DNA of 38,327 nucleotides from Prevotella sp. (GTDB taxonomy: Bacteria > Bacteroidota > Bacteroidia > Bacteroidales > Bacteroidaceae), in contig JALFIX010000217.1 in the NCBI GenBank assembly GCA_022775105.1, positions 1 through 38,327 of the forward strand, given 5' to 3'. The stretch's first letter is position 1; every line of letters begins with the position of its first letter. This document shows positions 25,835 through 38,327 of the stretch, one piece after another. The position numbers were made by a program, and so were the translations under genes. The notes under the pieces were generated by a model that saw nothing but the letters and a program-made list of their open reading frames with translations, ran no database searches and was not told where the DNA came from.

Positions 25835-26308
25835 AATAAATTCTTCATTTAAAAACTCTCCGAATATCTTCGCACATGTGATCACCTGATTCAGGCACGG
25901 CCTCGACTTGTAATACTCCTCCGTGCGCTCCGAGGCAACGTATGTCAGCGGCGTGTCCTTCTTCAGTTGCAGCAGTTCCGAGCATATAATCGTGCCATAT
26001 ATCTTCTGGAACCGGCTCACCAACTCCTGCACCACCTTGTAATTCGCCGACTTACCCTCGCGGTCGTCGGCATCCGCCGACCCGCACTCCATTCCTGCCA
26101 ATATCGCCATTCCTGCCACGGCACCGCAAGTCAGCCTCAACCTGCCCATACCGCCGCCCATACCGGCACTCAGCTTCAGGGCCTGTTCCTCGGTATATCC
26201 GTAAATGTCGGCATAAGCAGCCACCACAGCCTGAGCACAATTAAATCCCTTGACGAAGTATTCCTCCGCCCTCCTCATCCTTTCGTTCACGTCTATTTTC
26301 TCATTCAT
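25829..26308 (-). CDS. C_GCAxxG_C_C family protein
   Basis: A 159-residue protein of the family named after its cysteine pattern. FNCAQAVVAAYADIYG supplies the first Cys, then GMGGGMGRLRLTCGAVAGM (the GCAxxG-like core), CSELL and CLNQVITCAKIFGEFL. The family is thought to bind metal or an iron-sulfur cluster, and members often lie near redox or transport genes; the exact function is unknown. The length is typical. Two tandem promoter-like pairs lie upstream. It may be cotranscribed with the OPT transporter downstream. Confidence 0.9.
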   Translation of the reverse strand: MNEKIDVNERMRRAEEYFVKGFNCAQAVVAAYADIYGYTEEQALKLSAGMGGGMGRLRLTCGAVAGMAILAGMECGSADADDREGKSANYKVVQELVSRFQKIYGTIICSELLQLKKDTPLTYVASERTEEYYKSRPCLNQVITCAKIFGEFLNEEFIK

Positions 26309-26357
26309 AATCCGATATTATTTCTTGCTTATAAATATAAAAATGTGAAATTTGCTG

Positions 26358-26388
26358 CAAAAGTAACATATTTTATTGAATTGACAAA
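26358..26388 (-). promoter_or_regulatory. proximal promoter of the C_GCAxxG_C_C gene
   Basis: Minus strand TTTG (26385-26388), a 19-bp gap and TACTTTTG (26358-26365): a perfect match, about 50 bp before the start codon. Confidence 0.8.
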
Positions 26389-26448
26389 GGAATATCCTAA
26401 TTATTTGGAATTTCGGAAGATAAAATATGAGTTTTGATATTTCGGGAG

Positions 26449-26479
26449 CAAAGTTACAACTTTTATTTTAGAACACAAA
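26449..26479 (-). promoter_or_regulatory. distal promoter of the C_GCAxxG_C_C gene
   Basis: Minus strand TTTG (26476-26479), a 19-bp gap and TAACTTTG (26449-26456): also a perfect match. Spaced 91 bp behind the proximal promoter, it suggests dual control. Confidence 0.65.
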
Positions 26480-26540
26480 AAAAAGCGGAAATTTATTCAA
26501 AACTATACAGAAATAACCCAGTGCCTCCGCAGTTACTCCC

Positions 26541-26659
26541 CACCAAAGTCGGTGATACCCCAATGTAAGTATATCCCCATAGCGGAGTTACACCGACTTT
26601 GGTGCGGAGGTTCACCGACTTTGGTGCAGAGGAACATTAGAGGATCACCGACTTTGGTG
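26541..26659. repeat. cluster of four 14-bp CACCGACTTTGGTG motifs
   Basis: CACCGACTTTGGTG occurs exactly at 26591-26604, 26613-26626 and 26646-26659, and inverted (CACCAAAGTCGGTG) at 26541-26554. Direct copies start 22 and 33 bp apart, i.e. multiples of 11. The inverted and first direct copies, with flanking CCTCCGC (26524-26530) and GCGGAGG (26604-26610), can form a long stem-loop. The motif itself is an imperfect palindrome (CACC...GGTG). No gene lies within it. Confidence 0.85.
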
Positions 26660-26714
26660 TTGACTTGCATTAGACTTACAGCATATTTACATGCTTTTAG
26701 GTGTTATGCTGATG

Positions 26715-26784
26715 CATAATGTTAAAATTAGGTTAAAATCCCGACGAACCATATAACTTTCATAAAATTTTCACTATCTTTGCA
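26715..26784 (+). repeat. 70-bp direct repeat R1 with promoter -7 box
   Basis: R1 is 69/70 identical to R2 at 27781-27850 (single T/C difference after GGTTAAAA). It ends in TATCTTTGCA, with the TATCTTTG box at 26775-26782 pointing right. The HEPN/MNT pair lies between R1 and R2. Transcription from R1 would run antisense into the HEPN gene. Confidence 0.9.
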
Positions 26785-26915
26785 CTCGGACTCGCAGACT
26801 CTTAAAAAGCCTACGCCGAGCCAAGCATGGAGAAGCCACCTCTTTATAAATAATAGGGGAAATGGCAACAAATCCATGACAAAGCGGAATATGACAGAAG
26901 CTTGTTGTAATTATA

Positions 26916-27317
26916 TCACGAAATCAGACGTCTAATCCCATCTACCAACTCCTGTGCTTTGGGGGTATATTCATCCACCATATCTTTGTCGCAGTAGATA
27001 AAATCATCGTAATCACTACTATGTCTCATTTCAAACAAACGGCTGAAAGTCTTGCCATAATCTTTTGGCAAAATCCCAGATGCTATAAAATGTAAACGGA
27101 ACATTGTCTTAACTCCTGCATGGGTTGTGGCTGATAATTCTCTTGATAGTAATGCCGCAACTACAGCATAATAGCAAGCATAATACAACCTATTGATAGC
27201 TGCATTATAATAAGAGGCATCAGACATGACCTTTGCCTCATCTAATGTTTGTTCAGCCCTTTGCAAACGATATTTAATCAAAGCTCTTCTGCTCTCTTCG
27301 TCCAATTTCCCTTTCAT
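26916..27317 (-). CDS. HEPN domain protein (partner of MNT nucleotidyltransferase)
   Basis: A 133-residue all-helical HEPN protein (PF05168-like). The signature INRLYYACYYAVVAALLSRE (about 41-60) is followed by ATTHAGVKTMFRLHF and FSRLFEMRHSSDYDDF. An R-x6-H (Arg59-His66) is present, but the canonical R-x4-6-H of HepT-type RNases in the C-terminal helices is not, so nuclease activity is doubtful. The gene overlaps the MNT gene by 4 nt (ATG within the stop region), which shows translational coupling. Together they resemble minimal nucleotidyltransferase/HEPN modules, some of which act as toxin-antitoxin pairs. Confidence 0.85.
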   Translation of the reverse strand: MKGKLDEESRRALIKYRLQRAEQTLDEAKVMSDASYYNAAINRLYYACYYAVVAALLSRELSATTHAGVKTMFRLHFIASGILPKDYGKTFSRLFEMRHSSDYDDFIYCDKDMVDEYTPKAQELVDGIRRLIS

Positions 27318-27628
27318 AGTTTTATTCCTTCGTTAGTAATATTAATATAAAAAGGGGTCTTGAACGGGCGGTTTTCCCATTGCTTTTTGAGCATTATCAT
27401 TGGGCTGATTATTACGCCGTGATTGAGTTCAATCTCATAAAGAGCTCCTGAGATTTCATCTTCTCGTTTAAGGTCACGTTTGTCACCATCTAACAGTATA
27501 AGTACATCAATATCACTCTCGGGGCAGGCATCGCCTCGAGCTTCCGATCCATACAAAATGGCAGTTGCCTTTGGAGCGGACTTGAATATTGTGTCACGTA
27601 TTTCCTTGACAATTTCCGGTCTTCTCAT
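27314..27628 (-). CDS. MNT-type minimal nucleotidyltransferase (antitoxin-like)
   Basis: A 104-residue nucleotidyltransferase of the pol-beta fold. The motif ILYGSEARGDACPESDIDVL supplies Gly27-Ser28 and the catalytic Asp39 and Asp41 (DxD). In characterised MntA-HepT pairs the MNT protein adenylylates the HEPN toxin; here that role is inferred. I chose the start at 27628 (MRRPEIVKEI). The frame is open to 27679, but a consensus promoter (27649-27680) lies within that extension. It is the first gene of the two-gene operon. Confidence 0.87.
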   Translation of the reverse strand: MRRPEIVKEIRDTIFKSAPKATAILYGSEARGDACPESDIDVLILLDGDKRDLKREDEISGALYEIELNHGVIISPMIMLKKQWENRPFKTPFYINITNEGIKL

Positions 27629-27648
27629 ATTGACATCCTTATTTACTG

Positions 27649-27680
27649 CAAAAGTACGGCTTTTATTTGAATTGTGCAAG
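27649..27680 (-). promoter_or_regulatory. promoter of the MNT-HEPN operon
   Basis: Minus strand CTTG (27677-27680), a 20-bp gap and TACTTTTG (27649-27656), about 20 bp before the chosen MNT start. It overlaps the open frame upstream and so decides the start codon. Confidence 0.7.
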
Positions 27681-27780
27681 GAATTTGAAAGAAAAGTGAG
27701 GAAAGAAGGATGTTATTTAACAGTTATTGGATGTCATAAAGGGAATATCACAAACATACGAAGTCGCTACTTGTGGCTAT

Positions 27781-27850
27781 CATAATGTTAAAATTAGGTT
27801 AAAACCCCGACGAACCATATAACTTTCATAAAATTTTCACTATCTTTGCA
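27781..27850 (+). repeat. 70-bp direct repeat R2 with promoter -7 box for the seven-gene operon
   Basis: This is the second copy of the R1 repeat (69/70 identical). TATCTTTG at 27841-27848 matches TAnnTTTG and points toward the operon; the -33 region lacks TTTG. The predicted leader is about 395 nt, long for this phylum. Confidence 0.85.
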
Positions 27851-27879
27851 ACTGCTTTAGCCTGCAGAAGTTCCACATG

Positions 27880-28172
27880 GGATAGCGGGCGGGGCAGACT
27901 TTATGGAAAGAGCGTTTACCTGACGCTTGTCTTTGACTATCCGTAATCTCGCAAGTTACATTATCGTCAGAAGACAAGACAATGGTAGATGCTCACGGTT
28001 GGTATATATCTGCCGTATTTCAAGATTGCCGATTATTTGGTTGTCTTGAAGTTGGTTATATATATATGCCATAGCGTGGGCTTCTGCATTGTCCGTCTTG
28101 ACGATAAGGGCAATGCGAGAGCCTTGGATAGTGAGATGGGCAAGGGGGAGATTCCCACGCTATCTTTTTATT
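27880..28172 (+). ncRNA. candidate structured leader RNA or small RNA (two folded domains)
   Basis: Domain 1: GGATAG (27880-27885) pairs with CTATCC (27937-27942), enclosing AAAG-AGCGT (27907-27915) with ACGCT (27923-27927) and CTTT (27931-27934). Domain 2 is a three-way junction. A perfect 10-bp outer stem, ATAGCGTGGG (28071-28080) with CCCACGCTAT (28154-28163), encloses GCATTGTCC/GGGCAATGC (28086-28094/28108-28116) and CCTTG/CAAGG (28122-28126/28141-28145). TCTTTTTATTT follows at once. Such a fold plus U-run could be the 3' end of a small RNA or an attenuator before the operon. I do not recognise it as a known RNA family. Confidence 0.5.
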
Positions 28173-28251
28173 TAGCCTAAAAACAATTGCTTAATTGCCG
28201 AATTTGGGAATTCTGTCGGTCAAATATTGTAATGGAGATTTGTCGAATCCA

Positions 28252-29514
28252 ATGAAAAAAATCATCGTTGTTATGGCTCTCGGTATGATAGCCTTGCTTA
28301 TTATTAGCTCTGTTGGGGGATGTTCCGTTTGTTCTAATCCAACTCATGGCAAGTGGTTTGGAGAGGATGGTAGCAGAATCAAGGACACATCTCTAACTAA
28401 TAAAGATTCTTTCCTTATAAGAATTCCTTCAAAGGTGCATTTTTATATGGAGGCTTCAGGCAGTATGAACGGTTTTTTGAGAGGTGGAGTGCCCACTGAT
28501 TTCAAGAAAGATGTTTGGCAGGTGATTAATTATTACAGCAATTATGTCCCTTGTATTAGTGTTTTATCGTCTGATGGAGGCAAAACCAATGCATTGAAAT
28601 TTGGTGTAAGCCAGTTTCAAAATCCGTTTAATAGTGGAGGATTCGTATGTGGACAGTCAACAAACTTGCACAATATGATTAAAGATATAATGAGTGATTT
28701 CGATTCAGATAATGACGAAGTTGCCGTATTCGTTTCTGACATGGAATATGACCCGGTTGGAGCTGTGGCTCCACAGGTGCTTGCCTCTGTGTTTGCTACT
28801 GATATGGCTACTACTTTTGCAAATTTCAGGAGATCTGTATCTTTGGTTGCTGCGATATCTAATAGTGTTGACAAACAAGGAAATATACAGACGACCCAAA
28901 GACCTTATTACTATTTGATTATGGGTAAGGCAGAATGCGTGGCAAGCGTGAGGAATTGTATATCTTCAATGCTTGATGCCAACAATCATTTTATTGATAA
29001 CATTGAAACAGGGTTTGATTACGGTAAAGTGCCATATTCAATTTCAAGTTATGCAGGATGCGTTCAGGTTGGCAAAGACCCTTCTTTTCACTCAATAACG
29101 AGTGCTGGTTGCAAAATTGTTCTCGGGCTTAAACTTGAAAACTACAGGTGGCTTTTATCTACGGACAAAGATGTTATGCAACGCTCTTTTAAGATAAAAG
29201 GTATTAATGGGACGAAAGTAACTGTTGACAGCATATCTTACGACATAAAGAATGTTGTTGACAACCAACTCAAAAGAGATGCAACGGCATTAGTTCATTT
29301 AAGTGTAAATCAAATGCCATACGACTGCGATATTCTTCAGTGGTATCTGGATATTCCTGTAACAGATAATAGCAAATTAGCCCATCTGTTTACAGATACG
29401 CCTAATTCTTTGGAGCAAACATTTTCGCTTAAAGAGTTCATTATTGGAATGTTCAGGGCCAGTTTGGTATGTACTTACGGAAAGGAAAACTATATTCACA
29501 TTTCAAAGCAATAA
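28252..29514 (+). CDS. lipoprotein with von Willebrand factor A-like domain (operon gene 1)
   Basis: A 420-residue predicted lipoprotein. The signal MKKIIVVMALGMIALLIISS with lipobox VGGC (Cys24) decides the start at 28252 over the upstream Met at 28195. After it, KVHFYMEASGSMNGFL (62-75) is a strand ending in a MIDAS-like ExSxS (Glu67, Ser69, Ser71; usual form DxSxS). STNLHNMI gives the MIDAS Thr (137), and VAVFVSDMEYD gives the third MIDAS Asp (163). The fold is therefore vWA-like with Glu in the first position. The C-terminal 200 residues are unassigned. It probably sits in the periplasm or on the outer membrane and binds a partner through a metal site. It is the first gene of a seven-gene operon; the next gene starts 12 nt later. 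Confidence 0.75.
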   Translation: MKKIIVVMALGMIALLIISSVGGCSVCSNPTHGKWFGEDGSRIKDTSLTNKDSFLIRIPSKVHFYMEASGSMNGFLRGGVPTDFKKDVWQVINYYSNYVPCISVLSSDGGKTNALKFGVSQFQNPFNSGGFVCGQSTNLHNMIKDIMSDFDSDNDEVAVFVSDMEYDPVGAVAPQVLASVFATDMATTFANFRRSVSLVAAISNSVDKQGNIQTTQRPYYYLIMGKAECVASVRNCISSMLDANNHFIDNIETGFDYGKVPYSISSYAGCVQVGKDPSFHSITSAGCKIVLGLKLENYRWLLSTDKDVMQRSFKIKGINGTKVTVDSISYDIKNVVDNQLKRDATALVHLSVNQMPYDCDILQWYLDIPVTDNSKLAHLFTDTPNSLEQTFSLKEFIIGMFRASLVCTYGKENYIHISKQ

Positions 29515-29526
29515 AAATCAATAATT

Positions 29527-29976
29527 ATGGATTTGTCAACATTTTACGGATGGTTCGGAGTTAACTCCGCGTCATTAATTGATGCGAATAAAGACAATAA
29601 TATGGGTGATTCTGCTATGATTGCCTGGGCAAACTTGTCTCAATGGACAATATTGTTTTTTGCAGGGATGGTAATATTGTCGGTATTATCAGCAATTTAC
29701 TATTATACAGAATACAACAACCAACCCAAAAGACATTATACACCTAATCAATGGATGATAATTGGATTGGCAATTGTTGCTTTTGTTTTTTTATTGACAT
29801 TAGGTTGTGCATATTGTATTGAAAGGACAAATGCCATCAATGGATTAATTGCATTAGAGTTAAAACTATCGTCATGTAACGCAATATATGCAGCCGGAAT
29901 TTATGTTCTTGTATCATTTATATGGTGCAATATACCTGAATTACCAACGAATGCATACAGATTTTTAAAAATATAA
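29527..29976 (+). CDS. small membrane protein with three TM segments (operon gene 2)
   Basis: A 149-residue protein I do not recognise. Hydrophobic segments lie at about 38-60 (LSQWTILFFAGMVILSVLSA), 75-97 (WMIIGLAIVAFVFLLTLGCA) and 118-136 (IYAAGIYVLVSFIWC). The first 30 residues are polar and start MDLSTFYGWFGVNSASLID. It has no signal peptide and no catalytic motif. Tight spacing (12 nt before, 15 nt after) shows it belongs to the operon, where it could help anchor the cytoskeletal-like proteins or seat the motor in the inner membrane (inference). Confidence 0.7.
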   Translation: MDLSTFYGWFGVNSASLIDANKDNNMGDSAMIAWANLSQWTILFFAGMVILSVLSAIYYYTEYNNQPKRHYTPNQWMIIGLAIVAFVFLLTLGCAYCIERTNAINGLIALELKLSSCNAIYAAGIYVLVSFIWCNIPELPTNAYRFLKI

Positions 29977-29991
29977 ATAACAGACATAAAT

Positions 29992-31365
29992 ATGAACAAG
30001 AAAGTATTTGTTTTCTGTATTGGCGGCACTGGCGAGCGTGTTATGAAAAGCATAACAATGCTTATGGCAGCTGGAATGAGTACCAATGGTTATACGGTTA
30101 TTCCGATAATCATTGACCCGCATCTTGACCTTGACGAAAAGAAAAACCTTCAAAATCTTATAGACAAATACAGAGAGATATACCAAAGTGTTAAATTGGA
30201 TGGCAAAAGCCCCATTGGCTTCTTCAATTCAGAGATGGAATTGATTAATGCAATTGACACGCAGATAAATAATACTGACAAGGCATTGGGTGAAGACCGT
30301 TCGTTTGGGGAATATCTGAATATCGGGAATTTGAACATTTCAAGTATTAATAATTATCTTGTACAGACTATGTTCACCCAAGATAATCTTAACAGCAAGT
30401 TGTCCGTCGGATTTAGGGGAAATCCTAATGTGGGTACAGTCGTGTTACAGGAGATGCTTGAAGGAGCGGCATGGTTCAAGTCATTTAAAAACCATTGCGG
30501 TCAGCATGACAGGGTGTTCATTATCGGTTCTATCTTTGGTGGAACTGGAGCCTCTGGCTATCCTCTATTAGAACGCAAGATTCGTTCATCTATTGAATCC
30601 CAAACCGTATCCGAAGTTTTTATGGGTGCGGTAACTGTACTTCCATATTATGGACTAACAGATCCAAAGAAGAACAACAGCAAGATAGATTCCGGAAACT
30701 TTATGACCAAGGCAAAGGCGGCATTAGCCTATTACGAACATACGGTAAAATCAGATTTGTTGTATTACGTAGGCGAAACGACATTGCAAGCTTTCCACGA
30801 GAATGATGAGCAGAAACAGGAAGACGAGACCAATTTCACGGAATTGGTTGCTGCAACGGCCTTGTTTGACTTCTTGCAAAGGTCAAAGCCCCAGTCAAGA
30901 CAATACCTCACCCGTGCTATACAAGAGGATGTGGTGTCCTTGGATTTGTCAACATTAGGAAAAGGCTATGCCCCATTAGTTAAACACTTGGCAGATTTCA
31001 AGATTTTGCATTTACTGCTTGGTATATTGCCTAATGAGAAATATTTTCCTCTTAAACAGACACGGGGATTCGATGCAAGTTTCTACAATAATGACTTGCA
31101 TTCCTTGAATGAGTTTATGGAATCTTTTTCAAAATGGTATAAAGAACTGTCTATGAAGAAAAGGGCATTCGGCCCTGTTTCAGATGTCAGTCCCAATAAT
31201 ATGACAAATATTATAATGAATTACAGAGGTTTGGACGCGCTGGATGATTCCTATTATTTATTGGAGATGATAAAAAATTCCAAACAGATGACATCAAACA
31301 AAATGAGGGATTTTCTGGAGTATGCATTCAAAGCAATTGATAACTACACTAAAAAAGTAAATTAA
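29992..31365 (+). CDS. tubulin/FtsZ-like GTPase (Tubulin_2-like; operon gene 3)
   Basis: A 457-residue soluble protein. The N-terminus reads KKVFVFCIGGTGERVMKSI, a beta strand followed by a glycine loop (11-14) at the position of the first nucleotide loop of tubulin/FtsZ. RVFIIGSIFGGTGASGYPLL (174-193) carries the T4-type GGTGxS loop, the hallmark of the superfamily, and FMGAVTVLPYYGL follows as the next core strand. This pattern fits the Tubulin_2 (PF13809) branch of conflict- and envelope-associated tubulins rather than FtsZ, whose T4 loop lies much earlier. It probably binds GTP and may polymerise. It lies 15 nt after the TM protein and 7 nt before the actin-like ATPase. A dinucleotide-binding Rossmann protein is the alternative, but two correctly placed glycine loops argue for tubulin. 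Confidence 0.72.
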   Translation: MNKKVFVFCIGGTGERVMKSITMLMAAGMSTNGYTVIPIIIDPHLDLDEKKNLQNLIDKYREIYQSVKLDGKSPIGFFNSEMELINAIDTQINNTDKALGEDRSFGEYLNIGNLNISSINNYLVQTMFTQDNLNSKLSVGFRGNPNVGTVVLQEMLEGAAWFKSFKNHCGQHDRVFIIGSIFGGTGASGYPLLERKIRSSIESQTVSEVFMGAVTVLPYYGLTDPKKNNSKIDSGNFMTKAKAALAYYEHTVKSDLLYYVGETTLQAFHENDEQKQEDETNFTELVAATALFDFLQRSKPQSRQYLTRAIQEDVVSLDLSTLGKGYAPLVKHLADFKILHLLLGILPNEKYFPLKQTRGFDASFYNNDLHSLNEFMESFSKWYKELSMKKRAFGPVSDVSPNNMTNIIMNYRGLDALDDSYYLLEMIKNSKQMTSNKMRDFLEYAFKAIDNYTKKVN

Positions 31366-31372
31366 CAGTTTT

Positions 31373-34300
31373 ATGGCAAGCATAGATTTATGTATCATCG
31401 ACCGCGGAATACAAGGCACGGAATGGACGGCACAAAATACAGGGATTCAAGCTTCGCAGCTTGACAAGATAAAAGAAACTCGTACAGACAACAGTGGGGC
31501 TTTGAACTCATTGCCTACTCCATTTGCGAGATTCTTTGTGGTGAAAGAGGCGTTTCGTCGTATCACGGAAGAAAAAAGGCATAAGGATTATTATGCCGGT
31601 CTTGCATATACCCGACTTGTATCTGACTGCCTTGATGTGTTTGAACTGTTGTTCAATAAGAAGTATCATGAGAATCAGTGGGGAGACAAGGAAAGAATAG
31701 TTATTAAGGAGTGGAATAAGGATGAACAACTGAATGAACTAAAGAATAATGTTCCTATTCTATACAATGCCATAGTGGCGTCATATAATGAAGATATAAA
31801 TGAAGATAAACTATTCTTTGTAGTATTGGAAAAAGACGGGAAAGAGTTCTTGCTGGCTACAAGTTCGCCTATGACTGGTTTTGTAACTCCTCCGGACATT
31901 GACAAATATGATGTAAAAGAAAATAACACAGATTCTGTGAAATTCCGTGGAGAGCAATACAACAATCTGTTCATATCCAGGAAGAATGGCAAGGGAGCGT
32001 ATTTTCGTGATGTGCTCTTGTTTGAAGACCGTGACAAGGATTTCAAGAATTATATGTATCAGCTTTTCGGAACAGGGTCACTTGACGAACGTTTTCAGGT
32101 GATTCGTGACTATATACTAATGTTCGGAAACGATACAGACATAAGAAATAATTATCAGTTGCGAACGGAATATGTATTCACGGAATATAATTCTCAACTT
32201 TTGATTAATGGGCTAAATGTAAGCTATAATGACGAAATTGACATTAACAGCTTCTTTATGCCAAAACTTGTACGCCTGCCTTTTAAGATTAACAAAGAAA
32301 ACTATGTGGGCATAACCTATGAACGCGACCCCAAAGAGAGGGACTATGACTATTTGATACCTTTAAGAAGTGAGGCTTTGGTTTATCTCGACCAAGGCTT
32401 GGCTACATGCGTATGTCAGATTAAGCCATATAGTGTGGTTGTCAAGTTCAAATACAATGGCAATGAGTACAAAAAAGAATATGGGCATTGTGATATATAC
32501 GATTTGAAGGATAATGCCAAGTACTTAAATATTGGATTGTTCCCTAACATCTTGTCGCTGATAGAATCAGAGAATAACTATTTTAAGGTAGCGTTGTCTT
32601 TTGCCGACTTAAATGAAGAATATGGGACTCCAATGGATGTTAAACTTTTATTCTTCAAAAAAGACGCTAATGGTATCTTCGCTGAGATTAATGAGGTTTC
32701 AAAGGAAAAAGTGGGTATGGCAAAGAATGGTGTTTTGCCAGCTGTGGTCAGATCCGAGCAAAGAAGGGATACTGATACGGATTGCACTTCCAAGTATTAC
32801 GAAATCTTTAATTCTGGCTTTGATGCTGTTGAATTTAATGTAGAAGGGAATGAAGGCTTTATCCTGCCGAAGTGGAAACAGGCTGAAAGGAGCAATGACA
32901 GTTATACATACGCCATAGACTTGGGAACATCCAACACCTTTGTGTCGAGGAAAAAGGATAATGAAGACAATATGCCGGAAATGTTCTCAATGAATAAACC
33001 TATGGTGTCTTACCTTCACGAATACGACGAAAACACCCAGTACTCATTGGTTTCAAATATTGAAGAATCTATGATTGGCGGATGTCGTGAAATAATGAAA
33101 ACGGAGTTCGTGCCTCCGTTTGTTGACGGTTTTGACTATAAATTCCCAATAAGGACTGCAATCTGTAAGGCAAGCAATAAAGCAGACAAACCCGCTTTGT
33201 TTGATAACCACAATATTGCTTTCTTCTATGAAAAAATGTTGGAAAAGACACTACAGGATTGTATTACAGATATTAAATGGGAACAGGACGAAGAGCCTGT
33301 CAGGATTTTTATCCAAGAACTTATGCTCATTATTAAATGTGATGTGCTTCAACGTAATGGTATTCTGAACCAAACGAAGATTATTTGGTTCAGGCCATTG
33401 AGCTTTTCAGGAAAGACCAGGCGAATGTATGATAGATTATGGAATGAACTGCCTAAGCAATTCCTGTTTACAGACAATGTGAACTGTTATACTGAGTCTG
33501 AAGCTCCTTACTATTATTTCAAAAAGATGGACGAGGTGAGGAATACGGATTCCGTTGCTATTATTGACATCGGAGGAGGTTCAACTGACTATGTATATTT
33601 CAGCGAGAACAAACCTCTTTCGGCAACTTCCGTTCATTTCGGTTGTGACGTCCTATGGGGTAATGGTCACAATGAATTTGGAAATGCCAGAGAAAACGGT
33701 ATATATAATAAGTTGGTTGGCAACGTAGATTGGGGGGATATGGACTATTACCGCAAACTGGAGTCTGAAATGAAGGCTAATCCCAAATGCAGCACTACCG
33801 ATATAATCAATTTCTGGCTTGGTAATAGTAAATATAATGATGTGTTGGATAGACTGCATAGTTTATATCTTCCTTTGTTTGTATATCATTTTACGGCTAT
33901 ACTATTCCATATATCTCATTTGTACAAATACAAGGGATATGCAGCACCACGAACTATTGTATTCAGTGGCAATGGCAGTAGGTATATTGACAATTTCATA
34001 ACAGATGACCAAATGGTTATTGAGGAGATTGTTACAGCGATATTTTCAGATATCTATGGTAGTATAGAAAAAATTCATGTCTTGTTGCCCAAGACCAGAA
34101 AGGAAAGTACTTGCTATGGAGGACTATATCGTTCAAAATCGCTTGATGAAATTATTCCGACACATTACCAAGGGGTTGACAAGAAATATGAGAATGTGGG
34201 AGACATGAATTCTGACAAAGCAATGAAAGATATGCTTATGCATCGATATGCGTCAATGAATAATCTGTATGGAAAGATTCTTGATATACTAAAACGTAAA

Positions 34301-34489
34301 GATGTCATAGACAATGAAGTGGACATAGAACATTTCAAGTCTGTGTCATCAGCCGGATACGATGAAAATTTCACAAGACATTACCGTTCCGTTGTCAAAG
34401 AGAGGTATGCGGATAGTGATATATTCAACGACTCCGTGTTCTTTATTCCCATAAAAGATAAAATATTTGAACTTACAAAATTGGTATAA
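31373..34489 (+). CDS. large actin/Hsp70-like ATPase with a 500-residue N-terminal region (operon gene 4)
   Basis: A 1038-residue protein. The C-terminal half (about 510-900) shows the actin/Hsp70/MreB nucleotide-binding signatures: phosphate-1 YAIDLGTSNTFVSRK (Asp516), phosphate-2 VAIIDIGGGSTDYVYF (Asp732) and the adenosine motif TIVFSGNGSRYI (about 865). A helical tail of about 130 residues follows. The N-terminal 500 residues are not recognised. They open MASIDLCIIDRGIQGTEW and contain LPTPFARFFVVKEAFRRI. The size and ATPase core recall the SrfB family (PF07520), but I cannot confirm homology. No signal peptide or TM, so it is cytosolic. It sits between the tubulin-like and motor genes (7 nt and 3 nt gaps), so a filament or chaperone role coupled to the motor is likely. 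Confidence 0.75.
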   Translation: MASIDLCIIDRGIQGTEWTAQNTGIQASQLDKIKETRTDNSGALNSLPTPFARFFVVKEAFRRITEEKRHKDYYAGLAYTRLVSDCLDVFELLFNKKYHENQWGDKERIVIKEWNKDEQLNELKNNVPILYNAIVASYNEDINEDKLFFVVLEKDGKEFLLATSSPMTGFVTPPDIDKYDVKENNTDSVKFRGEQYNNLFISRKNGKGAYFRDVLLFEDRDKDFKNYMYQLFGTGSLDERFQVIRDYILMFGNDTDIRNNYQLRTEYVFTEYNSQLLINGLNVSYNDEIDINSFFMPKLVRLPFKINKENYVGITYERDPKERDYDYLIPLRSEALVYLDQGLATCVCQIKPYSVVVKFKYNGNEYKKEYGHCDIYDLKDNAKYLNIGLFPNILSLIESENNYFKVALSFADLNEEYGTPMDVKLLFFKKDANGIFAEINEVSKEKVGMAKNGVLPAVVRSEQRRDTDTDCTSKYYEIFNSGFDAVEFNVEGNEGFILPKWKQAERSNDSYTYAIDLGTSNTFVSRKKDNEDNMPEMFSMNKPMVSYLHEYDENTQYSLVSNIEESMIGGCREIMKTEFVPPFVDGFDYKFPIRTAICKASNKADKPALFDNHNIAFFYEKMLEKTLQDCITDIKWEQDEEPVRIFIQELMLIIKCDVLQRNGILNQTKIIWFRPLSFSGKTRRMYDRLWNELPKQFLFTDNVNCYTESEAPYYYFKKMDEVRNTDSVAIIDIGGGSTDYVYFSENKPLSATSVHFGCDVLWGNGHNEFGNARENGIYNKLVGNVDWGDMDYYRKLESEMKANPKCSTTDIINFWLGNSKYNDVLDRLHSLYLPLFVYHFTAILFHISHLYKYKGYAAPRTIVFSGNGSRYIDNFITDDQMVIEEIVTAIFSDIYGSIEKIHVLLPKTRKESTCYGGLYRSKSLDEIIPTHYQGVDKKYENVGDMNSDKAMKDMLMHRYASMNNLYGKILDILKRKDVIDNEVDIEHFKSVSSAGYDENFTRHYRSVVKERYADSDIFNDSVFFIPIKDKIFELTKLV

Positions 34490-34492
34490 ATT

Positions 34493-36631
34493 ATGGATGT
34501 TTTAGATATCATATTCAATAATTCTATTGCTATCTCAATAGCAATGGCGATAGGATTTATTTATTGGCAGTGCCGTGTATGTGCTGGAAATTTCAAATCC
34601 TTAGATATACTAAGGCGTTTCTTCTCGAAAAAAGAAGCATACGCAACCTTAGAGCGCATATCAGGTGATATTACTTCAAAACAGAAGAATGCGATAGTGT
34701 TGAAAGATGTTTCTGAGCCTGATGCAGAACTGCACAATCTTATAAGAGATATAAACGAATACATTGAAAAAAGTAAGGGAACAGTCGCTTTTTCAATTAT
34801 TCAAAACAAGACAGAAAGGCGTATTTCAATGCTATATGAAATAGCAACGTCTAAGTTGTCTTTCCCAACTCAGATTGGGTTGATGGGAACATTCGCAGGT
34901 GTTCTATTGGGATTGATAATGTTTCTAATAGGTACCAAAAGTTCTGGTCAAATTACAGATGATGCTATTAATAGTCTTATTTTTGGTGTACTCGTGTCAA
35001 TGGCTACAAGTTGTTTGGGAATACTACTGCTTATATTGAGCCATACCAAGGCAAGTAAGGTGACTAACCAAATAGATAGAGACAAGAATGAATTCTATGA
35101 ATGGGTACAGAATGAACTGATGCCATCAGTAGATGTCAGCATGGTCGAAGCCATAGGAAAATTGCATGAGACCATAGGTCAATTCGAACCGACATTCTCG
35201 GGCGTTATAAACAAGTTCAAAGACGCATTTAAGGATATTACAGGCGCATTTGGAGATGAATTCCGCACTAGTGTCCAGATTGTAAAGATATCTGTTGATA
35301 ATATGGGGGATAATATTGACAAAATAAACCATAACATCGACCTTCAAACAGAATTGTTAGGAACAATAAAGAGTAAAGAGCTTATTACTGGTATGGATGC
35401 ATTTGTTGAGGCATCCAAAAAGTTTGGAGAAATAACAGGTTCGTTAGACCAATTTGAAAGGGCACGTCGTCTTATGTTGATAGCAGCTCAGGAAGCGATT
35501 AACATACAAAGAGACTACAATGAATCATTGCAGATACCAAAACAGGTAGCAGCAGATATTAATTCGATTCTTGACCGTATTACCAATTTTGAGAAAAACA
35601 TCGAAGGTCTTGGTGCAAATATTGCCCAGACACAACTTGTTGGAAGTAAACTTGTTGAACAGATTAAGGAAAATATTATCGCCATACGAGATAAACAAAA
35701 GGTTGCTGAATATATGGTAGGTCTTACTAATGAGCAACTTGGGGATTTCTTTAATGAACAAAAGGGTGTTTTGTCAAGTATATCTGAAAAATACAATAAT
35801 GCTCTTAACGACTATCTAAATGATTATGGTCATATGCTTCAAGAACTCAAACAAGAATACGAGAATCGCAAACAAGAGTTTGTCGTTGCAATCGACAAGA
35901 AACTGTCTATTGACGATATCAAGAATGAATTTACCAACTTAAGGAAGTTGGGAGTTATTGTGGATAAACTCGATAAACTTTGCAATGCTGGTGTAAAGCC
36001 AGAACGGCTTAGTCATGAATTGAACTCAATCAAGGATGAATTGATTGCTCTTAATGAAAAACAAAGTAATGTCAGCAAGGGAATTACCCTCTTTGGAGGT
36101 GGAGGTAATGGAACCTCTGAAGCAAACAGACAAGAGATTAATAGGCTAAATGAAAAGATAATTAGTCAGAATGAAGATATAGAGAAACAAAAAGGCGAGA
36201 TTGATGCCCTCAAAGAAAGACTTGCCCAAGCAAGTAGCAATATGAGTGCTGAGGCTCGTAATAAAATCAATATGCTTGAGGGCGAGGTGTCAAGTTTAAA
36301 AGGTTCCATCTATGAATTGAAAAGCAATCTGAATTATGCTCAAATCCAGCTTGCATCTTATCAAAGACAAAGCTATTCAGAGCCTTCAGCAATAAAAAAA
36401 ACAAGTGTTGAACCCTCAAATATAGCAGGTATTCAAACCAATGATGCACGTATAGATGTTAACGATTCAGAAAAAGAAGCACCGACTGACATAAATCAGA
36501 ATGTAAACGTCGAAACTTCAAATGTTGATACAATATCAGGACTAAATCAAACCAATGAATCAAATAAGACAGATGGTGTGCCAGAAAAGCCGAAGGGTTT
36601 TATTGATAGATTTTTTTGGTGGAAAAAATAA
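34493..36631 (+). CDS. ZorA-like MotA/TolQ/ExbB-family motor protein with long coiled-coil tail (operon gene 5)
   Basis: A 712-residue protein. TM1 lies at about 9-27; TM2 (125-147, QIGLMGTFAGVLLGLIMFLI) and TM3 (159-183, NSLIFGVLVSMATSCLGILL) form the proton-channel core with the family's LMGTFxGxxxGL pattern. After TM3 come about 500 cytoplasmic residues: helical segments, then a clear heptad coiled coil (about 545-640, rich in EINRLNEKI- and LKERLAQA-type repeats), a polar Asn/Thr/Glu-rich linker and a terminal GFIDRFFWWKK. MotA, TolQ and ExbB lack such a tail; ZorA of the Zorya anti-phage systems has one. It starts 3 nt after the actin-like gene and precedes the MotB/ZorB-like gene by 6 nt. 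Confidence 0.85.
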   Translation: MDVLDIIFNNSIAISIAMAIGFIYWQCRVCAGNFKSLDILRRFFSKKEAYATLERISGDITSKQKNAIVLKDVSEPDAELHNLIRDINEYIEKSKGTVAFSIIQNKTERRISMLYEIATSKLSFPTQIGLMGTFAGVLLGLIMFLIGTKSSGQITDDAINSLIFGVLVSMATSCLGILLLILSHTKASKVTNQIDRDKNEFYEWVQNELMPSVDVSMVEAIGKLHETIGQFEPTFSGVINKFKDAFKDITGAFGDEFRTSVQIVKISVDNMGDNIDKINHNIDLQTELLGTIKSKELITGMDAFVEASKKFGEITGSLDQFERARRLMLIAAQEAINIQRDYNESLQIPKQVAADINSILDRITNFEKNIEGLGANIAQTQLVGSKLVEQIKENIIAIRDKQKVAEYMVGLTNEQLGDFFNEQKGVLSSISEKYNNALNDYLNDYGHMLQELKQEYENRKQEFVVAIDKKLSIDDIKNEFTNLRKLGVIVDKLDKLCNAGVKPERLSHELNSIKDELIALNEKQSNVSKGITLFGGGGNGTSEANRQEINRLNEKIISQNEDIEKQKGEIDALKERLAQASSNMSAEARNKINMLEGEVSSLKGSIYELKSNLNYAQIQLASYQRQSYSEPSAIKKTSVEPSNIAGIQTNDARIDVNDSEKEAPTDINQNVNVETSNVDTISGLNQTNESNKTDGVPEKPKGFIDRFFWWKK

Positions 36632-36637
36632 AAGGAG

Positions 36638-37498
36638 ATGAAGTTAAGTGGAAGAAATAAAGAGTCGTTTTGGCCAAGTTATGTTGACATTATGACAACA
36701 CTATTTACAGTGATGCTCATTTTGTTTGCGGTATCTTATGCCCGATTTAAACTCAAACAAGGACAACTTGAATTATTGGTCAAGGAATACAAGGACATCA
36801 TTGATGTATATTCAAGGGTTGACGAGATAGACAAAAGTCCGTATTATGCATACGACAGTCTTTATCTGAAACATACAATCACTATCAGTATCGCCTATCA
36901 GGATAAGGAATACGATATTCACAAGCTCAAACTTGATGAAAATCCTTCTACAAAGGAACGGGCAGACATGAAGAGGGACAGCATTCGCCAGGCTGGAATG
37001 TTGGCCCAGACAATCATTAATGAGCTTGAAGAAAAAAGTGACATAAGTAAAAACATCAAATTCCTTGTCGTTATTGAAGGACAATCGTCGAAGATTCCTT
37101 ATAATGAAGATGACTGGAGAAACAATGAAACGCTTTCATTCTTAAGGGCGCAATTCCTGAAGAAGTATTGGACAGACCCAATTGAGAATGGGGGGTGTGG
37201 ATTATTCCAAAAGACAAGTGAGAATGACATTAACAGCAAATGTGAAATCATTGTAGCCGGAAGTGGTGAGGGTGGTGTTCCAAGATATTACTATACTGGA
37301 TTAAATAGTCCTGTAAGTCTGAATCCTGATGAGGAAAAATATTCTTCATATAATGATGTAACACAATCAACGCCCGAAGAATTTGTGGCTTGGCGTAATA
37401 CTGAAATAGGAAATCAGAGGTTTTTGATTAATATTATCCCAATAATAGGCAATATAGATGTCACTAAAGCGCAAATTAATAATATTGGTATAAAGTAG
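36638..37498 (+). CDS. ZorB-like MotB/OmpA-family motor subunit (operon gene 6)
   Basis: A 286-residue protein with a short cytosolic N-terminus and a single TM (about 12-34) that begins FWPSYVDIMTTLFTVMLILF. The Asp17 just inside the helix is at the position of the proton-carrying Asp of MotB, ExbD, TolR and ZorB. A periplasmic linker leads to an OmpA/MotB-type peptidoglycan-binding domain (about 140-280): FLVVIEGQSSKIP, then NNETLSFLRAQFLKKYW (the N-x-x-LS-x-x-RA signature) and the final strand RFLINIIPI. It pairs with the preceding ZorA-like gene as a proton-driven motor anchored to the cell wall. Confidence 0.87.
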   Translation: MKLSGRNKESFWPSYVDIMTTLFTVMLILFAVSYARFKLKQGQLELLVKEYKDIIDVYSRVDEIDKSPYYAYDSLYLKHTITISIAYQDKEYDIHKLKLDENPSTKERADMKRDSIRQAGMLAQTIINELEEKSDISKNIKFLVVIEGQSSKIPYNEDDWRNNETLSFLRAQFLKKYWTDPIENGGCGLFQKTSENDINSKCEIIVAGSGEGGVPRYYYTGLNSPVSLNPDEEKYSSYNDVTQSTPEEFVAWRNTEIGNQRFLINIIPIIGNIDVTKAQINNIGIK

Positions 37499-37499
37499 A

Positions 37500-38141
37500 A
37501 TGGATAATTACGTAATATCAGATAATATTTATAAAGAATCAATAGAGGGATTGACAGATAATCGTTATGTCATTTCATCTGATATCTTCGAAGAGACTGC
37601 CTCTTTGACTTCTGAGATTATTTCTCAGGAGTTGATTGAGTCTTTCCATTTTTCTGGTCGCTACTGGATATGGAAAATGACATCCGATTATAAAAAAATG
37701 GAATGGAAAAATATGTATCAATCAGGAGAGATGAGGATTAAGACCAATGGTTTGAAATACCTGAAATCTTTTACTTCAATTGTAGCCATGGAAGAAGCTT
37801 ATTCTTTGCTTCATCCCGACCGTGTCGGTATAAAAAAGTTTCCGCCATCATACTATGCATTTGCTAACTATTTAAGGATAGGAGATGTCGTTCTTGTTAC
37901 GCGTCCAGGTTTCGACGTTTTATGTTGGGGGATAGTGAAAAGTGGTTATATGTATAGGCCAAATCAGTATTCAGGAAAACATTACAGAAAGATGAAATGG
38001 TTCCTTGTTGATATTCCGTTTACTTATACTAAAAGCATTCAAACCCTTTATCAGATACCAAAGGATGAATGTACTGATTTGAAAGAAACACTTATTGCAA
38101 ATATTAGAATTAATGCAGCTGCACTTCCTTTTGGATTTTAA
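37500..38141 (+). CDS. protein with EVE/PUA-like segment, possible nucleic-acid sensor (operon gene 7)
   Basis: A 213-residue soluble protein starting 1 nt after the ZorB-like stop, so translation is coupled. I do not recognise the first 90 residues. The second half contains ANYLRIGDVVLVTRPGFD (GD at 128-129), then LCWGIVKSGYMY and HYRKMKWFLVDIPF (161-174). This succession (RIGD, G-x-V-x-SGY, R-x-x-KW) resembles the PUA-like/EVE-type beta-barrels that read modified bases and are found beside McrB-type restriction proteins. No nuclease motif is visible. It may be the target-recognition component of the operon. This call is a weak fold-level guess; another beta-barrel is possible. Confidence 0.5.
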   Translation: MDNYVISDNIYKESIEGLTDNRYVISSDIFEETASLTSEIISQELIESFHFSGRYWIWKMTSDYKKMEWKNMYQSGEMRIKTNGLKYLKSFTSIVAMEEAYSLLHPDRVGIKKFPPSYYAFANYLRIGDVVLVTRPGFDVLCWGIVKSGYMYRPNQYSGKHYRKMKWFLVDIPFTYTKSIQTLYQIPKDECTDLKETLIANIRINAAALPFGF

Positions 38142-38150
38142 TTATGCTAT

Positions 38151-38163
38151 TTAGACCGTCTAA
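38151..38163. promoter_or_regulatory. 13-bp perfect palindrome after the operon
   Basis: TTAGAC-C-GTCTAA begins 10 bp after the stop of the last operon gene. It could be a small protein-binding site, a weak hairpin, or target DNA beside the insertion sequence. No T-run follows, so it is not a typical terminator. Confidence 0.35.
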
Positions 38164-38208
38164 TCTCTGGAGGATTCTTCTTGTTCGTAAGCGTCTCCAC
38201 GATGACGT

Positions 38209-38240
38209 ATTGCGTTGTCCAAATTAATTGTTTACCTTTG
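38209..38240 (+). promoter_or_regulatory. promoter of the element's first gene
   Basis: ATTG (38209-38212), a 20-bp gap and TACCTTTG (38233-38240), a good -33/-7 pair 24 bp before the ATG at 38265. AGAGG (38255-38259) lies 5 bp before the ATG and could serve as ribosome-binding site. Confidence 0.6.
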
Positions 38241-38264
38241 CCGCGTTTTTTAAAAGAGGTAACA

Positions 38265-38327
38265 ATGAAAACAGCAGAAGAACGTTATGAGGAGACTTGG
38301 AACAGTTATCTTGAGCTTCTCAACAAG
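38265..38327 (+). CDS. start of a small ORF, possibly IS66 accessory protein (3' truncated by window)
   Basis: Only 21 codons are present (MKTAEERYEETWNSYLELLNK), and the frame is open at the window edge. The helical, Glu/Tyr/Trp-containing start is compatible with the small first ORF of Bacteroidota IS66 elements. Promoter and ribosome-binding site spacing support translation. The product is not certain. Confidence 0.45.
   Translation, partial: MKTAEERYEETWNSYLELLNK

Follow-up and report, generated by a model that had tools for sequence, protein, structure and literature searches.

A conserved six-gene operon of gut and rumen Bacteroidales, whose changeable last genes often encode a predicted exported nuclease, likely guards the envelope against phages

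Bacteroidales of the gut and rumen carried a conserved operon of six genes, in which a predicted ion-driven membrane motor stood next to predicted tubulin-fold and actin-like proteins. It was followed by changeable last genes, often encoding a predicted exported nuclease, and it was likely that this operon guards the envelope against phages. We analysed one copy in a window of 38,327 nucleotides (the whole stretch of DNA under study), where the operon consisted of six core genes, g1 to g6, and one exchangeable gene, g7, and was no closed seven-gene system (Table 1). The initial annotation had described a seven-gene unit in an AT-rich setting. All seven open reading frames were on the forward strand with gaps of, in order, 12, 15, 7, 3, 6 and 1 nt, and the GC content of the operon was 0.36-0.39 versus 0.44-0.53 for most of the remaining window; the place of the seventh gene in the unit had to be given up. 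Namely, the order and strand of g1-g6 were kept in 35 of 36 fetched loci, whereas g7 was carried by one of them (L004). The g1-g6 gaps in the compared loci, measured from the longest-ORF starts, were all at most 19 nt with a median of 3. Thus, the kept order and strand together with the short gaps indicated that the six-gene arrangement was not due to chance.

Table 1. Features of the operon and its surroundings in the window
Feature	Positions	Strand	Description
g1	28252-29514	+	predicted lipoprotein; predicted vWA domain followed by a beta-sandwich
g2	29527-29976	+	small membrane protein, three hydrophobic segments judged by eye
g3	29992-31365	+	tubulin/FtsZ-fold protein, loop FGGTGASG, 457 aa
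g4	31373-34489	+	putative actin/Hsp70-superfamily NTPase, 1038 aa
g5	34493-36631	+	ZorA/MotA-like motor subunit, long coiled-coil tail
g6	36638-37498	+	ZorB/MotB-like stator, one TM segment with the ion-site Asp
g7	37500-38141	+	exchangeable gene; stand-alone domain known beside EVE in McrB-type AAA+ proteins
HEPN/MNT pair	26916-27679	-	PF05168 and PF01909; outside the conserved unit
IS-like repeated element (edge only)	38187-38327	+	copies in its own genome; contig end

Both neighbours named in the initial annotation were real. The HEPN and MNT genes, located upstream on the opposite strand, matched PF05168 (8e-18) and PF01909 (9e-11), and the pair also matched PADLOC PDC-S09 (3.3e-21). We rejected the pair as a part of the system because of its opposite strand and because no match to it adjoined the OPT gene in any of the 13 relatives inspected. 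On the other side, the final ~140 nt of the contig had eight further copies in the same genome (90-100% identity, four at contig ends), so the IS-like element was a real repeat whose edge alone lay in the window. An Rfam scan of positions 26300-38327, covering the stretch upstream of g1, gave no match.

The occurrence of the operon was patchy, even inside one genus. Relatives were found in 38 of 301 genomes of the family and in 12 of 119 genomes of a second genus. In the genus of the window itself, any g4 relative occurred in 70 of 299 genomes and the close form in five (its own genome included). Moreover, when the left-hand core gene was inspected in 13 relatives, chosen by us among 47, nothing next to it matched the operon. 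The contrary case raised by the initial annotation, namely single-copy core genes, was not found. The operon was also present on two IMG/VR contigs (L002 and its near twin L003).

A variable part of the locus was the slot after g6, where we considered genes that shared the strand of g6 and lay no more than 3 kb from it, and assigned families by BLAST cluster. Of 34 loci, 24 had a nuclease of the Endonuclease_NS (NucA) type in the slot and 19 a DUF4357 protein; these counts omit L006, which lacked g6 at a contig end, and L032, with just 30 nt available. In the isolate Prevotella sp. tc2-28 (L015), the six genes were accompanied by both DUF4357 and the nuclease. Since 40 genomes of the own genus contained 68 Endonuclease_NS-type nucleases, about 0.03 slot nucleases would be expected by chance, a figure that serves as a guide only because the loci were related and came from several genera. 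All 25 members of the nuclease cluster kept GH and the Asn of N..PQ and had an N-terminal hydrophobic segment, and the Arg before GH was missing in nine of the 25. The slot nucleases were predicted to be exported, presumably with the catalytic side toward the periplasm, and the DUF4357 protein was likely a DNA-binding module. Five slot proteins were scanned from relatives in which a further gene preceded g5: two were Trypsin_2, one SNase, one Endonuclease_NS and one of no recognised family.

In the window this slot was occupied by g7, previously read as EVE/PUA-like. We rejected the EVE identity: the g7 profile reached a probability of 4.2% against two EVE domains, and it was the neighbouring domain that matched instead. 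An hhalign comparison with this EVE-adjacent domain of two proteins gave 7.7e-13. When four proteins with a g7-like domain were scanned, AAA_5 was present in all four and EVE in two; the McrB-type label for these AAA+ proteins is our own reading. Additionally, g7 matched PADLOC PDC-S02 (7.2e-6), and its profile had two weak PDB matches, both antibody chains by name. As a stand-alone McrB-associated domain, g7 was likely a DNA reader. This homology was shared with modification-dependent restriction of the McrBC type; no AAA+ protein or McrC-type nuclease was matched in the operon (Pfam). The operon of the window contained no recognisable effector and no nuclease family over the Pfam cut-off; a partner nuclease of g7, if any, lies outside it.

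PADLOC was also run on the flanks of 34 loci (L006 and L003 left out), with proteins above 900 aa or below 120 aa removed from both the flank and the control sets and with five slot proteins taken out by hand (L004 g7, L008 D1, L022 D1, L035 D3 and L036 D3; 116 of 121 proteins remained). The flanks matched 211 models with these 116 proteins and the controls 55 models with 130 proteins, a weak comparison because it counts models and a single protein can match many. The control set contained an AbiE pair. In a PHROG scan of the flanks, no named structural protein was among the best 25 of 64 families.

The first two core genes agreed with their earlier descriptions as a vWA-like lipoprotein and a protein with three transmembrane segments. 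g1 had a lipobox, and its model suggested a vWA domain with a MIDAS-like ExSxS...T...D set and, after it, Ig-like parts. The vWA reading depended on a second look and not on Foldseek alone, which gave nothing at E ≤0.001 and a list headed by antibody complexes. A PDB sequence search with g1 had no match, and the sole Pfam line was PvuII (0.033, below the cut-off). g2 was found in all 36 loci (L002-L037), matched no family over the cut-off in Pfam, NCBIfam or PADLOC, and had C134 and TNAY invariant across 11 aligned rows.

The claim that g3 was Tubulin_2-like was correct at the level of the superfamily: its predicted model had the FtsZ/tubulin fold with GGTG loops. However, g3 scored 14.3 bits against PF13809 (cut-off 27), and the hhalign probability was 0.8% with a thin profile built from two Tubulin_2 proteins. 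For g4, the actin-like part of the annotation stood. Residues 708-759 matched Ppx/GppA just under the Pfam cut-off (2.1e-5, 24.6 bits versus 27), the best PDB match was an exopolyphosphatase (0.0038), and D516, G518, T519, D732, GGG734-736, G866 and N867 were present in 44 of 44 rows, including the window's own copy. The putative phosphate-1, phosphate-2 and adenosine motifs of the actin/Hsp70/Ppx superfamily were all found in its sequence. The SrfB identity proposed for g4 was rejected, as there was no PF07520 match at E up to 1; the same search over 148 genomes was silent even in controls and says nothing.

The nearest published precedent for operons with vWA, FtsZ-like and OmpA components is the set of FtsZl1 (Tubulin_2)/vWA/OmpA operons, for which Makarova and Koonin (2010) predicted membrane remodelling (PMC2875224). 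Like the predicted parts of ours, those operons contain a vWA protein (in some cases with a signal peptide), an FtsZ-fold protein and transmembrane proteins, and several genomes add a component of OmpA type (PMC2875224), to which the OmpA-like part of g6 may correspond. In contrast to them, our operon had no Pfam match to a P-loop GTPase or protein kinase, its g3 lacked a long coiled-coil C-terminus and fell below PF13809, and it had, in addition, a ZorAB-type motor and a large putative actin-like NTPase. The operon might be an FtsZl1-like machine that remodels membranes or the envelope, for vesicles or envelope repair. The tubulin-fold and actin-like proteins would then give the inner membrane its shape, with the motor and the vWA lipoprotein linking that membrane to the peptidoglycan and outer membrane, and the nucleases would be passengers. 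We consider this a rather doubtful possibility. It fits the precedent of PMC2875224 and the finding that the vWA-TM-tubulin-actin core lacked a ZorAB match in L076, from another family of the phylum, and in the fetched stretch of nine of 20 distant related regions (chosen by us among 38 matching genomes), so the core may occur without this motor. It also agrees with the similar-sized neighbours after g6 in L051-L053, which may mean stable inheritance. However, exchangeable slot genes for nucleases, proteases and likely DNA readers would not be expected of such a machine, and the patchy occurrence and the Tubulin_2 scores of g3 speak against it as well.

The prediction that g5 and g6 form a MotA/MotB-type pair was upheld, and the pair appeared most like the Zorya motor. 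Amid coiled-coil matches, g5 matched NCBIfam ZorA_2 (4.6e-5, 22.7 bits versus a cut-off of 100) and PADLOC ZorA1 (5.5e-4). Of the five best PDB matches of its N-terminal profile, four were chains with the name ZorA and the other, 8vvn, was called just a MotA/TolQ/ExbB domain protein; the profile match was at 0.0038. A full-length search returned 59 PDB sequences with coiled coils such as FliS at the top and ZorA chains as the sole motor type. G132, T133, S169, T172 and S173 were kept in 39 of 39 rows, including the window's own copy. As for g6, it matched PADLOC ZorB1 (1.8e-6), whereas in NCBIfam flagellar MotD was best (5.8e-4, 19.6 bits, cut-off 283) ahead of ZorB1 (0.022, 14.2 bits, cut-off 400). 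Among its three PDB matches, the second was 8qyd_F from the ZorAB entries (0.024, across the TM segment) and the other two were malaria CIDR domains. D17 of g6 aligned with the TM-segment Asp of 8qyd_F and, like R170, was present in 35 of 35 rows with the window's copy counted, so g6 appeared to have the Asp that allows ion passage in ZorB. The periplasmic part showed an OmpA-like order of motifs by eye, with R170 kept, and no OmpA match in Pfam. The usual peptidoglycan-binding motif is GHTD; its Asp was replaced by Ser in all 35 rows, which made peptidoglycan binding by g6 doubtful.

The initial annotation had suggested a new Zorya-like class, which is possible. The likeness was in the MotA/MotB-type pair with its long cytoplasmic tail, in the motor-type PDB matches of g5, which were to ZorA-type chains only, and in the nuclease genes after the motor in most relatives, comparable to the nickase ZorE of type II (PMC11890865). 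Unlike Zorya, four more conserved genes (predicted vWA, TM, tubulin-fold and actin-like) were present, the nucleases were predicted to be exported, and the curated NCBIfam cut-offs for ZorA and ZorB were not reached. As had been noted, no ZorC, ZorD or ZorE was detected: in PADLOC none of the seven proteins matched them at E ≤1. A true new type, where the tubulin-actin pair would take the place of ZorC/D or ZorE as responder in the cytoplasm and block phage by filament assembly instead of a nuclease, was unlikely in our opinion. The type of motor, the long g5 tail and the lack of a nuclease family over the cut-off in the window's operon would suit it, but it is opposed by the low ZorA_2 and ZorB1 scores, by cores without a ZorAB match and by the nuclease in most relatives.

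The Agl-Glt machinery of Myxococcus includes a 5:2 motor, MreB, a small GTPase and the vWA lipoprotein CglB, and a machine partly analogous to it, or to motor-driven vWA force transducers, could be imagined that transmits force across the envelope for adhesion to surfaces or for motility. It was improbable: the PDB motor matches of g5 were of the ZorA type with no MotA, TolQ or ExbB chain, nuclease and likely DNA-reader genes followed g6, and the named carriers were gut and rumen species in which, to our knowledge, gliding is not known. Force transducers with vWA domains, frequently encoded close to TolQ/TolR-like genes in PVC bacteria, are proposed in PMC12204202, where CglB is cited as an adhesin of the vWA kind. 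With its predicted vWA and Ig-like parts, the predicted lipoprotein g1 resembles them, but it has a lipobox where those transducers have a TM anchor.

We therefore return to immunity, and propose, at a little under an even chance, that the six-gene operon is an envelope-spanning conflict machine that licenses exchangeable effectors against invading phage DNA. A breach of the outer membrane or peptidoglycan would be felt by the vWA lipoprotein g1 and the OmpA-like part of g6. Ion flow through g5/g6 would turn or bend the predicted coiled-coil tail of g5, and this movement would alter an NTP-driven assembly of g3 and g4 under the inner membrane, with g2 as a putative anchor. The assembled state may recruit or release the slot-encoded effectors, and a NucA-type nuclease would then act in the periplasm, on the route of injected DNA. 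In support of the proposal we count the synteny of the six genes, the ZorA-type PDB matches of g5, the ZorB matches and kept ion-site Asp of g6, the tubulin fold of g3, the contents of the slot, the patchy occurrence and the flank comparison. Against it we count the missing effector in the window's operon, the nine nucleases without the Arg, the remodelling precedent, the similar-sized neighbours in L051-L053, the Ser in the GHTD-type motif of g6, the cores without a ZorAB match and the better MotD score of g6. More tentatively, and well short of an even chance, we suggest an undescribed immune machine where the ion motor drives a tubulin-actin switch that licenses exchangeable nucleases or proteases in the periplasm. 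Phage DNA would thereby be destroyed during its passage through the envelope and the chromosome spared, and the motor would have been added later to an older core of the vWA, TM, tubulin and actin genes.

Conflict systems with a constant core and variable effectors, including nucleases and proteases, were described by Kaur et al. (2020), who also reported another system that pairs a NucA-type endonuclease with a trypsin-like protease (PMC7159879). Their GAP1-N2/DO-GTPase systems likewise have membrane-associated cores and variable effectors; one theme contains tubulin and vWA, a second one HSP70 (PMC7159879). However, these themes are separate there and both kinds were in one operon here, and the GAP1-N2 lineages listed exclude Bacteroidales (PMC7159879). 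An ion motor was a further difference of our operon. None of the seven proteins had a Pfam match (E ≤1) to DO-GTPase or GAP1, models that Pfam presumably includes.

A search of the open-licence PMC literature found no description of this gene set. If true, the proposal would join a Zorya-type ion motor, tubulin-fold and actin-like proteins and extracytoplasmic effectors, whose joint working we found nowhere described in that literature. It would offer a natural set of co-conserved partners for the question of which targets a ZorA tail signals to, and a testable claim on FtsZl1-like operons, whose role was predicted in 2010 (PMC2875224). Since g4 relatives were so frequent among the sampled congeners, it would also matter for the phages of gut Bacteroidales.

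All seven genes of the operon lay on the same strand with intergenic gaps of 12, 15, 7, 3, 6, and 1 nt, confirming the tight unit described in the initial annotation. The AT-rich composition noted there was also found (GC 0.36-0.39 against 0.44-0.53 over most of the remaining window), as was the neighboring HEPN/MNT pair on the opposite strand. From the end of g7 to the end of the contig there were 186 nt, and the contig stopped within a repeat that had 8 further copies (~140 nt) elsewhere in the same genome.

Features of the window and of two other contigs (C48, C152) of its genome
Feature	Position	Strand	Remark
Operon g1-g7	28252-38141	+	
HEPN/MNT toxin-antitoxin-type pair	26916-27679	-	Upstream of g1; MNT protein matches PADLOC candidate PDC-S09
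350 nt without clear ORF	27840-28190		Separates the MNT gene from g1; Rfam search negative
Tubulin_2 (PF13809) piece, L080	C48:19-573		Above cut-off; at contig end
Tubulin_2 (PF13809) piece, L079	C152:5316-5639		Above cut-off; at contig end; adjoins zinc-ribbon-like TM protein

Searching with an alignment of g4, the actin-like NTPase, gave 34 named genome loci, to which two near-twin loci from a viral collection were added. The initial annotation had treated all seven genes as one set, and the tabulated neighborhoods upheld this for g1-g6, which kept order and strand in 35 of the 36 loci (L006 was cut by a contig end), but not for g7, which only L004 shared with the window. Gaps were all ≤19 nt (median 3, overlaps counted). 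Since identity to the window proteins was 28-71% for g1, g3, g5, and g6 (10-13 aligned loci), the gene order was held over long divergence. Residue conservation was read from 44 rows for g3, 44 for g4, 39 for g5, and 35 for g6, each counting the window's own copy and those of g3, g4, and g5 also counting some loci fetched twice; the 36 rows of g1 excluded the window's copy. The two viral-collection contigs (L002 and L003, 104 kb and 58 kb) had matching upstream genes and were either misassigned or a mobile element. Two records labelled Erysipelotrichaceae and Roseburia (L013, L034) held this Bacteroidales operon and were likely binning errors in metagenome genomes.

The genes after g6 formed a variable slot, tabulated for 35 loci, 34 of which extended at least 1.5 kb past g6; genes were counted if they shared the strand of g6 and lay no more than 3 kb beyond it. 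A DUF4357 protein (PF14267, 7.5e-31 for L011) was found in 19 of these 34 loci, always directly after g6 (19/19), and an Endonuclease_NS nuclease in 24 (PF01223, 9.5e-56 for L011; others via BLAST cluster). Both were present in 16 loci, the nuclease only in 8, DUF4357 only in 3, and neither in 7, including L004 with its g7. Given 68 Endonuclease_NS genes across 40 own-genus genomes, a nuclease so near g6 would be expected by chance in ~0.03 of the 34 loci, but the loci were related and came from several genera. The window's genome had two such genes, each on another contig (C169, C177). All members of the nuclease cluster (n=25, with that of L007 upstream on the other strand) kept GH and the Asn of N..PQ, while the Arg before GH was missing in 9. 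Every one of the 25 had a hydrophobic N-terminal segment, and in some a lipobox could be made out by visual inspection; the slot nucleases were therefore predicted to be exported or anchored. DUF4357 resembled RAMA weakly (0.0038), and relatives of g7 were McrB-type proteins; both point toward restriction-type proteins, and therefore the first slot gene was likely a nucleic-acid reader. In L104, the g7 profile matched a single 993-aa open frame twice, as tandem McrB-associated domains. A DUF6804 membrane protein, either on its own or as a fusion with a cytoplasmic part of ~350 aa, recurred downstream of g6 (L008, L011, L015, L018, L019, L023, L035, L036).

Any g4 relative was found in 38 of 301 family genomes, 12 of 119 genomes in the genus of G135, and 70 of 299 own-genus genomes, five of which, own included, had the close full-length form. 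To the left of the operon lies a gene for an OPT transporter, which 47 of 60 congeners also had. Beside it, within the ~13 kb fetched, none of 13 inspected congeners showed any match for the operon or the HEPN/MNT pair, and one had the neighboring redox gene; gene sizes there varied, and some genomes (L126, L129) looked alike. Flanking proteins of 34 loci (116 proteins) matched 211 PADLOC models versus 55 for controls (130 proteins), making the proposed defence-island setting suggestive only, and the like-sized neighbors after g6 in L051-L053 counted against mobility.

The idea of a Zorya-like class stood in part: the ZorA and ZorB models were matched, but far below their cut-offs. No ZorC, ZorD, or ZorE was matched, as had been anticipated, and thus the operon was not filed as Zorya. 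According to excerpts of PMC11890865, Zorya function depends importantly on ion flow, on the ZorA tail, and on the binding of ZorB to peptidoglycan, and the type II effector ZorE is a nickase. By analogy, envelope damage would switch the motor on and its state would be passed along the motor tail. In comparison to Zorya, the operon added a co-conserved pair of tubulin-fold and actin-like proteins, and its effectors were often predicted to be exported; hence the NTPase pair may be the switch, and the slot genes may act at the site of DNA entry. We give this mechanism slightly less than an even chance of being broadly right. Membrane remodelling, the main rival although rather unlikely, has a precedent in FtsZl1, the Tubulin_2 systems of Makarova and Koonin 2010 (excerpts of PMC2875224). 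The operon was not assigned to FtsZl1 or SrfB either, since g3 scored below the cut-off of PF13809, suggested initially for it, and SrfB (PF07520) gave no match. A Zorya type with the filament itself as effector would share the motor and appeared improbable; force transmission for adhesion or motility seemed slightly more so.

The wider family was sampled in 20 distant regions, hand-chosen among other family-genome matches of the g4 search. Relatives of g3 and g4 were present in all 20 (in L068, g4 was a 290-aa piece only), of g1 in 19, and of g5 with g6 in 11; in 7 of these 11, a further gene separated g4 from g5. From the regions with this added gene, five slot proteins were scanned, giving Trypsin_2 (2), SNase (1), Endonuclease_NS (1), and, for the fifth, no family match. 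In L055 and L066, a Trypsin_2 protein with a lipobox-like start followed g6, and in L066 SNase came next, placing protease and nuclease in one slot. The fetched stretches of the other 9 regions had no g5/g6 match, and L076, from another family of the phylum, had vWA-TM-tubulin-actin without a ZorAB match; thus, the wider unit is the NTPase core, and the motor resembles a module. Such operons lacking a ZorAB match (L056-L060, L063, L065, L070; L076), where read, were followed by a coiled-coil protein whose C-terminal domain was conserved, and several also by a zinc-ribbon TM protein; they may be a sister system that uses a different sensor. The Tubulin_2 pieces L079 and L080 of the window's genome represented a separate FtsZl1-type locus.

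No description of this gene set was found in the open-licence PMC literature searched. Excerpts of that literature treated Tubulin_2 proteins as scattered and divergent (PMC9871819) and proposed motor-driven vWA transducers (PMC12204202). The design agreed with the conflict systems of Kaur et al. 2020, which have a constant NTPase core and variable effectors; in the excerpted text (PMC7159879), tubulin and HSP70 belonged to separate themes, whereas the operon had tubulin-fold and actin-like proteins together. We place the operon with the motor-plus-effector conflict systems, as a new form, and there is a real chance that it is a kind of its own.
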